From Rhodospirillales bacterium (GTDB lineage: Bacteria > Pseudomonadota > Alphaproteobacteria > ATCC43930 > CGMCC-115725): a stretch of DNA of 45,743 nucleotides. The stretch covers positions 1 to 45,743 of the forward strand of contig DAHUYF010000030.1 of assembly GCA_027315365.1 (NCBI GenBank), written 5' to 3'. Below, one piece after another: positions 27,842 to 30,423 of the stretch. Below the pieces are notes generated by a model that ran no database searches, was not told the origin of the DNA, and saw nothing but the letters and a program-made list of their open reading frames with translations. Position numbers and translations under genes: made by a program. Position 1 is the first letter of the stretch. Every line of letters begins with the position of its first letter.

Positions 27842-28903
27842 TCAGCTCCGTCGCCGCCGCTCCGCCGCGAGCAGCTTCGCCTTGCGCTCGACGCCCCAGC
27901 GATAACCCCCCAGCGCGCCGTCGCCGCGCACCACGCGGTGGCAGGGGACGACCAGCGCCGTGCGGTTATCGGCACAGGCTCTCGCCACCGCGCGCGCGGC
28001 GCGCGGCTCGCCGATGCGCCGCGCGATGGCGGCGTAGCTCGCGGTCTCGCCATAGGGAATCTTCTGCAGCTCGCGCCAGACGCGCCATTGGAACGCCGTC
28101 GCCTGAAGATCGAGCGGCAAGGCCAGATCGGGCGCCGCACCGTCGAGATGGGCGAGGATTGCGCTCACCCACCGGCCCAGCGCCGCATCGTCGCGCCGGA
28201 TCTCGGCGGCGGCATATTCCGCCTGGAGCGCCGCCTCGAGCGCCCGGTCGCTCGCGCCGAGACTCACCGCCGAGATGCCGCGCGCCGTGGCCGCGACCAG
28301 CAGGCGGCCCAAGGGGCAGGTGACGATGGTGAAGCCGATCGCCATGCCCTCTCCGCGCTTGCGATACGTGGCGGGGGTCATGCCGAGCTGCGCGTCGGAG
28401 CGCTCGTAGAGCCGCGACGAGGAGCCGTAGCCGGCCTCGTAGAGCGCGCCGGCGACGCCCGAGCCCTGGCGCAGCCGCGCCTTGACGCGCGCGAGGCGCC
28501 GGGCGGCGGCAAAATCACGCGGGCTGATGCCGAGCTCGCGCTTGAACAGGCGCTGCAGCTGATGCGCGCTGGCGCCGACCGCGGCGCCCAGCCGCGCGAG
28601 GCTCGGCGCGCCGCTCTCGCCGTCCTCCAGCGCCGCATCGATCAGGCGGCAGACCTGGCGCACCCGCTCCGCCGCCGGGTCGCTCGCCGGAAGCTGCTGC
28701 GGATGGCAGCGCCGGCAGGGGCGATAGCCTGCGGTCTCTGCCGCTTCGGGCAATGGAAAAAACCGCACATGCTCGCGCCGCGGCCGGCGGCTCGGGCAGG
28801 AGGGGCGGCAATAGACGCCGGTGGTGGTGACGGCGTAGACGAACGTGCCGTCGGCGTGGCGCGAGCGGGCGGCGACGGCATTCCAGTATTGCTGCTCGAC
28901 CAT
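27842..28903 (-). CDS. ada: Bifunctional Ada: methylphosphotriester sensor, AraC activator and O6-methylguanine methyltransferase
   Basis: 353-residue full-length Ada. The N-terminal zinc site has Cys32, Cys36, Cys63 and Cys66 (GVYCRPSC and YRPCRRC), and Cys32 is the methyl acceptor from phosphotriesters. An AraC-type HTH follows at about residues 85-180, and the C-terminal methyltransferase has VVPCHRVVR with acceptor Cys321. Methylated Ada activates the adaptive response to alkylation. ATG 28903 was preferred to ATG 28909 because AAGGA is eight bases from it but only two from the other. No alkB or alkA is adjacent. Confidence 0.95.
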   Translation of the reverse strand: MVEQQYWNAVAARSRHADGTFVYAVTTTGVYCRPSCPSRRPRREHVRFFPLPEAAETAGYRPCRRCHPQQLPASDPAAERVRQVCRLIDAALEDGESGAPSLARLGAAVGASAHQLQRLFKRELGISPRDFAAARRLARVKARLRQGSGVAGALYEAGYGSSSRLYERSDAQLGMTPATYRKRGEGMAIGFTIVTCPLGRLLVAATARGISAVSLGASDRALEAALQAEYAAAEIRRDDAALGRWVSAILAHLDGAAPDLALPLDLQATAFQWRVWRELQKIPYGETASYAAIARRIGEPRAARAVARACADNRTALVVPCHRVVRGDGALGGYRWGVERKAKLLAAERRRRS

Positions 28904-28990
28904 GGACATGATCCTTCGCTGCGACGATGGGATGTCATATCGCCCTTCCGCCCGCTCCTGCTATCCGCTCCCAGCGGCGAATTGTAATTG

Positions 28991-29045
28991 TCTAGTGTTC
29001 CGACACGGACGTTTGCTTCTCGAGCGTCCGTGTCGGAACACTGGA
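28991..29045. repeat. Long perfect hairpin 1 (18-bp stem, extendable to 21)
   Basis: Arms at 28994-29011 and 29025-29042 are perfect complements: the left arm AGTGTTCCGACACGGACG pairs base for base with the right. Outside, two more pairs and one wobble extend it to 28991-29045. The 13-base loop can pair further, leaving only five loop bases. It has no U-tract. It is 88 bases upstream of the ada start codon. Confidence 0.85.
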
Positions 29046-29059
29046 AAACTCAAAGGACT

Positions 29060-29110
29060 GCGTTGCGGCTTCGACACTTGATCGGGGGGCAAGTGTCGAA
29101 GCCGCAACGC
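29060..29110. repeat. Long perfect hairpin 2 (21-bp stem)
   Basis: Arms at 29060-29080 and 29090-29110 are perfect complements; the arm starts GCGTTGCGGCTTCGACACTT. The nine-base loop contains six G. The right arm touches the first base of the cobB stop codon (29110-29112), so this is the immediate 3' end of the cobB transcript. No U-tract follows. Confidence 0.85.
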
Positions 29111-30423
29111 TAGGCGCGGTCGACCAGATGCAGGAAGGAGCCCATCACGCGGCCCTTGACGCGGCCGGCGGCGCCGAGATCGTTGCCGTCGGCATCGGCC
29201 GTGGCGAAGAGCGGCGCGCCGCCGCCCTCGTCGAGAATGGTGGCGTAATGATATTCGTGGCCGCGGAACGACGCGCCCGTCTTTCCCAGCGGTCCTGCCG
29301 ACAGGAGCCGTGCCCGGCGATAGCCCAATTGCCGGCGCCGCTCGGCGAAGCTGGTCTCCAGCGGCAGCAGACCGGCCATGGCATGGCGCGCTCCCGACGC
29401 ATCGACCAGACCGCTTCCCAGCACCATGTAGCCGCCGCATTCGCCATAGATCGTCGCCTCGCGCGCCGCGGCGGCGGCGAGCCCCGCGAGAAAGCGGCGA
29501 TTGCCGGCAAGCGTGCCGGCGTGCAGCTCGGGATAGCCGCCCGGCAGGAACACCGCATCGGCGTCCGGCGCCGGCGCCTCGTCGGCAAGCGGCGAGAACA
29601 GCGTGAGTTCGGCGCCGGCGCTGCGCCAGCCTTCGAGCATGGCGGGATAGGCGAAGGCGAAGGCGACGTCGCGCGCCACGGCGATGCGCCGGCCCAGCAG
29701 CGGCACCGGCAGCGCGGCGGGCAAGGCGGCAAGGCTGCTGGAGCGGGCGAGGCGGGTCAGCCGGTCGAGATCGACCGCCGCGCTCACCCGCGACGCGGCG
29801 CGGTCGAGAAAGCCGTCGAGGTCGGGATGCTCGGCCGCCTGCACCAATCCCAGATGTCGTTCGGGCAGCGCCAGCTCGGCATGGCGCGGCACCTGCCCGA
29901 GGATGGTCAGGTCCGGCAGCGCGGTGCGCACCGAATTCTCCAGCATCGCGGCGTGCCGGGGTCCGCCGACGCGGTTGAAGATGACGCCCACCACCGGCAC
30001 GTCGGGGCGGTGGCTGATGAAACCGCGCAGCAGCGCGGCCGCCGAGCCTGCCTGGCCCGCGACATCCACCACCAACACCACCGGCCAGCCGGTGAGCGCC
30101 GCGAGGTCGCCGGTCGAGCCGCTGCCCGATCGGCCGGCGCCGTCGAAAAGGCCCATCGCCCCCTCGCACAGCACCAGCGCCGCCCGGCGCTCCAGCGAGG
30201 CGACCAGCGCCGCGATGGTCTCGCGGCGCATCGCCCAGGCATCGAGATTGAGGCAGGGCGAGCCGGAGGCGGCGCCATGGAAGGCGGGATCGATGTAATC
30301 GGGGCCGGCCTTGGCCGAGGCGATGGCCATGCCGCCACGGCGGAAATGGCGCAGCAGTGCGAGCGTGAGCGTCGTCTTGCCGCTGGCCGAGGCCGGCGCA
30401 GCGAGGATGAGGCCGCCGCTCAT
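29110..30423 (-). CDS. cobB: Cobyrinate a,c-diamide synthase CobB
   Basis: 437-residue ATP- and glutamine-dependent amidase that makes cobyrinic acid a,c-diamide in B12 synthesis. The N-terminal synthetase has a P-loop-like PASASGKTTLT at residues 10-20 and AGPDYIDPAFH. The C-terminal class I glutaminase domain has the nucleophile Cys329 in YGECGGYM and a late HEYHY. Length is normal for CobB/CbiA. No other cob genes are in the window and no cobalamin riboswitch was recognised upstream, so it is either the edge of a scattered pathway or a lone gene. A 32-codon frame overlaps its start. Confidence 0.95.
   Translation of the reverse strand: MSGGLILAAPASASGKTTLTLALLRHFRRGGMAIASAKAGPDYIDPAFHGAASGSPCLNLDAWAMRRETIAALVASLERRAALVLCEGAMGLFDGAGRSGSGSTGDLAALTGWPVVLVVDVAGQAGSAAALLRGFISHRPDVPVVGVIFNRVGGPRHAAMLENSVRTALPDLTILGQVPRHAELALPERHLGLVQAAEHPDLDGFLDRAASRVSAAVDLDRLTRLARSSSLAALPAALPVPLLGRRIAVARDVAFAFAYPAMLEGWRSAGAELTLFSPLADEAPAPDADAVFLPGGYPELHAGTLAGNRRFLAGLAAAAAREATIYGECGGYMVLGSGLVDASGARHAMAGLLPLETSFAERRRQLGYRRARLLSAGPLGKTGASFRGHEYHYATILDEGGGAPLFATADADGNDLGAAGRVKGRVMGSFLHLVDRA

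Follow-up and report, generated by a model that had tools for sequence, protein, structure and literature searches.

Two long hairpins stand in tandem between ada and cobB of a Rhodospirillales bacterium, and the question that they raise is whether they belong to the ends of the neighbouring transcripts or have arrived as a piece of mobile DNA. The window, i.e. the whole stretch of DNA that was analysed, comprises 45,743 nucleotides. Within it, hairpin 1 (28991-29045, plus strand) has arms at 28991-29015 and 29021-29045 with a run of 18 Watson-Crick pairs, or 21 with one G-T wobble, and hairpin 2 (29060-29110, plus strand) has arms at 29060-29080 and 29090-29110, which pair at 21 of 21 positions around a loop of 9 bases. 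The 14 bases between them (29046-29059, plus strand) form a spacer that by eye resembles the spacers of diverged elements in other genomes. These stems and their spacing are as given in a preliminary description of the locus, as is the position of hairpin 2 at the end of cobB: the stop codon of cobB occupies 29110-29112 on the minus strand, and base 29110 is common to stop and hairpin.

Together the two hairpins make up one copy of a small mobile element, and this element has spread within its own genome. The whole element (28992-29113, plus strand) is one 122-bp unit consisting of a left CTAG, hairpin 1, the spacer, hairpin 2 and a right CTAG, with boundaries taken from an alignment of 11 copies and from loci that lack the element. 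The left CTAG (28992-28995) and the right CTAG (29110-29113) have no strand of their own; the former presumably contains a TA derived from the target, and the latter, when read on the minus strand, contains the TAG stop of cobB. With TA as the target duplication, the mobile unit proper would be 28995-29110, or 116 bp. The gene cobB (29110-30423, minus strand; CbiA and GATase_3 domains) thus has its stop codon inside the element end, and ada (27842-28909, minus strand; Ada_Zn_binding, HTH_18 and DNA_binding_1 domains) lies 81 bp away from the element on the other side.

No gene was recognised in the element. Its predicted fold is very stable, with a minimum free energy of -95.4 kcal/mol against a mean of -54.2 +/- 4.3 kcal/mol for shuffled sequences (z -9.6; 0 of 200 shuffles as stable). 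No terminator-like site was found within the element and its hairpins carry no T-tract, so that they do not qualify as intrinsic terminators, in agreement with the preliminary description. None of the Rfam matches reached its gathering score; the best match at the element scored 32 bits against a cut-off of 79, those at the element were all sub-threshold and mostly to microRNA families, and six other loci yielded none.

A total of 25 copies was counted in the draft genome of 4.97 Mb (G000; 4,966,495 bases in 215 contigs, 99.25% complete), made up of 12 near-full copies, 8 partial ones, 4 single hairpins and 1 isolated end. BLAST of the region against this genome gave 39 matches on 19 places, the window included, many of which were the palindrome aligned to its own opposite strand. 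Six further places came from a covariance model, R1, which was built from 11 full copies and has rough E-values, and from an end pattern. The single hairpins (C12, C6, C215 and C128) and the isolated end (C34) were accepted by eye; their R1 E-values were 7e-4 for C12 and 0.08 to 0.8 for C6, C128 and C215. With one mismatch allowed, the end pattern matched 41+32 times in the genome against 84+78 for the reversed control, and most of these matches are therefore chance. Three were inspected (C34, C46 and C57) and C34 alone was retained; C46 was excluded from the count, as it had an exact 13-base end match and nothing beyond. Length is near-constant and boundaries are fixed across the copies (123-127 bp in 11 aligned copies, 124 bp in 8 of them), as is expected of a MITE that occurs in many copies.

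Loci without the element indicate that it was inserted. In two of the three other genomes of the genus (G003 and G002), cobB and ada are adjacent with no element between them, and cobB, read by eye, ends at the same codon (TAA in G003, TGA in G002); in the third, G001, nothing matches this locus well. Most simply, the element inserted at the cobB-ada junction of the window, loss in the relatives being formally possible. The joined flanks of 7 of the 25 copies were also queried in the same-genus genomes, and for four of them both flanks were found at a locus without the element (C190 and C163 in G003, C77 and C59 in G001). The flanks of C59 are 172 bp apart in G002, with unrelated sequence between them, those of C191 are about 1.5 kb apart in G003, and no match across both flanks was obtained for C170 or C25. 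R1 matched nothing in ten same-genus loci, among them the window-junction loci of G003 and G002. An insertion documented by empty sites is a further mark of a MITE. CTAG is present at both element ends, and the intergenic stretches at the empty sites are too diverged for a base-precise reading of a target duplication. The cobB-ada gap of G002 (L107, about 2273-2301) holds a different small hairpin, AGGAGCCT...AGGCTCCT.

The perfect palindromes had been taken to suggest recent arrival or selection. The insertion at this locus looks lineage-specific; the arms, however, differ by 16-17% per site between copies, so that the burst of copies cannot have been very recent. Over both hairpins together, 13 pairs have changed on both sides within the genome, a number reached in 0 of 500 shuffles. 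In an arm-swap test, non-Watson-Crick pairs amounted to 9.5% within copies against 16.7% across copies for hairpin 1 (0 of 2000 swaps as good). Paired changes thus keep hairpin 1, whereas upkeep of pairing was not detected by this test for hairpin 2 (15.7% within against 17.0% across copies, 376 of 2000 swaps). A perfect hairpin 2, as in the window, is itself atypical, 1 to 7 of 22 pairs being non-Watson-Crick there in the 11 aligned copies. For the kept pairing, two explanations are inseparable here: selection for the structure during movement of the elements, and repair of palindromes towards perfect pairing by replication. Copies also decay by deletion, which accounts for the partial ones. 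In all four single hairpins, hairpin 1 contributes the left arm and hairpin 2 the right arm, and the outer ends are thus the part that is retained.

When 385 genomes of the host's class were searched with R1, two-hairpin elements were matched in 10, namely the own genome and, in diverged form, nine others. The weakest of these, G083, reaches an R1 E-value of no better than 8e-4, and G004, which belongs to the same family as the host, was found by R1 though BLAST had missed it. A BLAST search of 60 relatives with the element yielded no copy apart from one 36-bp match in G043, which was rejected as it had no covariance-model match. The relatives that were inspected share one plan: outer ends of the CTAGTGG type (often CTAGTGGTSCGA), two hairpins, a spacer of 10-15 bases and a total length of about 108-125 bp, with a 3-base bulge in some. 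Their stem sequences differ strongly from genome to genome, and yet eight of the elements, folded singly, are much more stable than their shuffles (z -8.3 to -13.6). One genome (G120) carries a single-hairpin copy of the type seen in the own genome, with both outer ends kept. Multiple copies in the genome, empty sites within the genus and diverged relatives elsewhere bear out the earlier proposal of mobile intergenic palindromes; the copy search that went with it, for which a single copy absent from all relatives was the unfavourable outcome, gave 25 copies and a family in nine other genomes.

The exact end pattern exceeded its control in G120 (12 vs 4), G318 (24 vs 2) and G395 (18 vs 0) and slightly in G255 (3 vs 2), did not exceed it in G004 (8 vs 8), G068 (3 vs 9) and G364 (1 vs 14), and had no match in G000 and G106; end patterns alone are weak evidence. 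A spacer scan of genome contigs, which may leave out near relatives, gave one match, apparently in an ABC-transporter gene as judged by eye, and this was taken as chance. Three whole elements had no blastn match among plasmids. Viral contigs gave 0 matches to the spacer pattern, and the 15-base end pattern occurred in 39 of them, none of which the model matched at E 0.01. One viral contig (L280) resembles a two-end element by eye, with E 0.013 when searched together with two other loci.

The outer ends have a counterpart on plasmids. A 35-base end of one relative matched, at E 0.02, a 104-bp element on pMNOD03 of Methylobacterium nodulans. With the end of this element, matches were obtained in 19 plasmid records, every one from a rhizobial or related genus; a variant of the end gave 30 records, 28 of them from such genera. 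The E limit was 10, and the weakest matches may be chance. The resulting Rhizobiales plasmid repeat is about 30 bp long, CTAGTGGTSNAAAYCTGACGCTTGGTACCC, and had 0 matches in the viral contigs. Twenty places were scanned on the plasmids. In 7, inverted copies of the repeat flank one or a few genes, in 2 they flank a gene-less unit of about 100 bp (L315 and L337), and in 11 the repeat was seen once or not at all. The bracketed genes encode an NTF2-like protein (L318, 2503-3336), an ankyrin protein (L319, 2501-3437), the same hypothetical protein in two places (L320, 2503-3242; L334, 4002-4741), a hypothetical protein (L327, 2356-3031) and a HAD hydrolase (L332, 4002-4871), and one pair of repeats encloses a 4.9-kb stretch (L336, 1078-5962). 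No transposase gene is annotated or evident between the paired repeats, and the bracketed non-transposase genes look like mobile gene cassettes without a transposase. These plasmid relatives of the ends, together with a sigma-factor search that gave 514 matches, all below 60% identity and the ten best of them alphaproteobacterial, point to Alphaproteobacteria as the class of the host.

In an ungapped comparison, the left end of the window's element (28992-29021, plus strand) shares 21 of 30 positions with the plasmid repeat, which is the best score in the window, followed by the inner arm of hairpin 1 with 19. The right end (29084-29113, minus strand) is identical to the inverted repeat at 18 of 30, a score that two unrelated places in the window reach as well. 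Across the 12 near-full copies the left end scores 18-24 and the right end 10-21 of 30, the latter being weak (10-11 of 30) in three copies. Terminal inverted repeats, as a MITE should have, are thus present over the 12 near-full copies, though the right end of the window's copy, taken alone, is no better than two chance places. From this likeness we take the element ends to be homologous to the plasmid repeat, the right end less surely than the left.

CTAG is the usual border of the element. In the own genome it was present at 18 of the 32 ends of 16 intact-ended copies (13-14 bases were considered around each end), and 13 of the 14 other ends carry near-variants such as CTGG. In eight other genomes, 55 copies have it at 85 of their 110 ends, with near-variants at 22 of the remaining 25; opposite-strand duplicates and two places (G083 C13 and G318 C105) were left out of the 55. 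Outside the elements CTAG is depleted: 72 occurrences against about 801 expected from base composition in 277 kb examined of the own genome, i.e. about 11-fold rarer, and 59 against about 586 in 182 kb of the other genomes.

As at cobB, a simple GC3-based gene caller places the stop codon of a flanking gene in the terminal CTAG (or CTAA, TTAG, ATAG) of 14 of the 25 own-genome copies. All 14 genes have Pfam domains, e.g. arginase, RsmB, radical-SAM with BATS and AI-2E transporter. Of the 55 copies in the other genomes, 25 have a gene stop in their terminal CTAG or in a one-base variant of it. The caller had flagged 27, two of which (G318 C91 and G255 C18) were dropped with the stop beside the CTAG; a stricter automatic check keeps 21. 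For comparison, 23 of 131 CTAG sites outside elements are gene stops, or 23 of 69 when sites inside genes are set aside. Against the first null, the 39 of 80 copies at stops give p = 2e-6, against the second p = 0.04. Targeting of CTAG together with the loss of gene-breaking insertions thus explains most of the placement at stop codons, and an additional preference for stops is at best weakly supported.

The element is, in our judgement, probably non-autonomous and of the MITE kind, 116-122 bp long, with ends that are inverted repeats recognised by a transposase encoded elsewhere and with insertion at the TA of CTAG. The outer ends would be inverted repeats of about 25-30 bp on which a transposase acts in trans, and each end would be followed by its own reverse complement, so that each folds into a hairpin. 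Such hairpin-shaped ends are unusual for transposons of this sort. The enzyme would cut at the TA boundaries and insert the element at the TA within CTAG, probably with a target-site duplication, by a cut-and-paste reaction of a DDE transposase that might be IS630- or IS5-like, with TA or CTAG as target. IS630 of Shigella sonnei reportedly inserts at TA with a preference for 5'-CTAG-3' (Tenzen and Ohtsubo 1991). For IS630-type elements, use of TA is described in a report on ISY100 (PMC2170065), and a precedent is the 107-bp RUP, for which mobilisation by IS630-Spn1 has been proposed (PMC2229807). Since the repeat begins with G, an element that enters a TAG or TAA stop at its TA would recreate TAG and leave the length of the gene unchanged, and the stop of cobB would be one such rebuilt stop.

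A partner transposase gene would be bracketed by repeats of the type CTAGTGGTSNRAWYCTGACGCTTGGTWCC. No autonomous element or transposase with matching ends was found in the own genome, where the enzyme may now be absent or unassembled. Four places with a DDE_3 (IS630-type) domain were found there; two have plausible end repeats, both unlike those of the element, and two have no convincing end repeats within the 2.2 kb examined. The own-genome IS630-type elements were rejected as partners, since the readable end repeats (2 of 4) differ. One of them (L090, 138-1644) is an apparently intact element of 1507 bp with ends CTAGTACCTCTGCACAGAG, and it lies on the same contig as the isolated end C34. 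In G106, the CTAG of a two-hairpin element (L116, 1501-1792, on C95) also forms the end of an IS5-type transposase gene. The IS was rejected as a partner as well and read as a nested insertion sharing the target, six other copies of the IS that were inspected having unrelated flanks after the same CTA; the IS and the two-hairpin element seem to use the same target.

The preliminary description had likened the hairpins to REP/BIME sequences, i.e. dimers of extragenic palindromes that owe their spread to a RAYT (Y1) transposase. The element is indeed extragenic, palindromic, paired and multicopy, and REP dimers, some with conserved spacers, have been described (PMC3733652). In the strict sense we find this reading very unlikely, as the search for a REP-associated transposase proposed at the time gave no PF01797 (Y1/RAYT) match in the own genome at E 0.001, although the same search was positive in 5 of 14 control genomes. 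Moreover, the hairpins measure 51-55 bases rather than 20-40 bp, with longer stems, and they form a fixed pair whose outer ends both carry CTAG, instead of each unit having a GTAG or CGTC tag at one of its ends. The same want of a Y1 match weighs against descent from IS200/IS605 elements, whose two end hairpins are handled as single strands and leave no target duplication. Two long end hairpins, and the 3-base bulge in some relatives, would suit such an origin. CTAG is symmetric at the two ends, however, and both ends resemble inverted copies of one repeat, which IS200/605 ends are not known to do; we regard this origin as improbable.

That spread was incidental, and that the element is kept as a bidirectional transcription terminator or as a stabiliser of mRNA ends, is likewise improbable. 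Very stable hairpins directly after stop codons, and the paired changes that maintain hairpin 1, point in this direction; against it stand the missing T-tract, the decay of copies by deletion, and the fact that CTAG targeting mostly explains the placement at stops. Beyond the non-autonomous element with terminal inverted repeats, a wider picture may tentatively be drawn, which we consider possible but rather doubtful as a whole: a class-wide family of double-hairpin transposons for which CTAG-type stops are safe landing sites. A depleted target and an end that begins with G and rebuilds TAG would spare genes while the element multiplies, the transposase would require hairpin ends, hence the differing stems would stay paired, and the same ends would move single genes as rhizobial cassettes. 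No description of the element, of insertion into stop codons or of such a family was found in the open-access literature searched. The locus offers a concrete, testable case of a mobile element whose target and end sequences jointly spare the host gene, as it sits in a stop codon that it rebuilds. It also ties small hairpins between genes, which occur in several families of one class and which annotators might otherwise take for terminators or REPs, to one kind of terminal repeat, so that finding the transposase responsible becomes a defined problem.

Several known systems are comparable. IS630 of Shigella sonnei differs in being an autonomous IS, and the IS630-type elements of the own genome with readable repeats have other ends. 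RIME (Rhizobium-specific intergenic mosaic elements) are about 108 bp long with two large palindromes. They are described as short intergenic repeats of rhizobia (PMC2573895), and it is by description that we liken the element to them. RUP of Streptococcus pneumoniae is also non-autonomous, with 107 bp, a TA target and ends like those of an IS630-type element, but the part of the source consulted (PMC2229807) describes no fixed pair of full hairpins and no stop-codon sites for it. A partner IS has been proposed for RUP (IS630-Spn1), whereas none was matched to the window's element. In mobile insertion cassettes (MICs), repeats bracket genes other than transposase genes, as the related repeats of about 30 bp do with one or few genes on Rhizobiales plasmids, whereas the window's element has no recognised gene. 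On a plasmid of Mesorhizobium sp. AR02 (L331, 4002-4005), the CTAG of the plasmid repeat is the stop of an annotated PLP-dependent aminotransferase gene.
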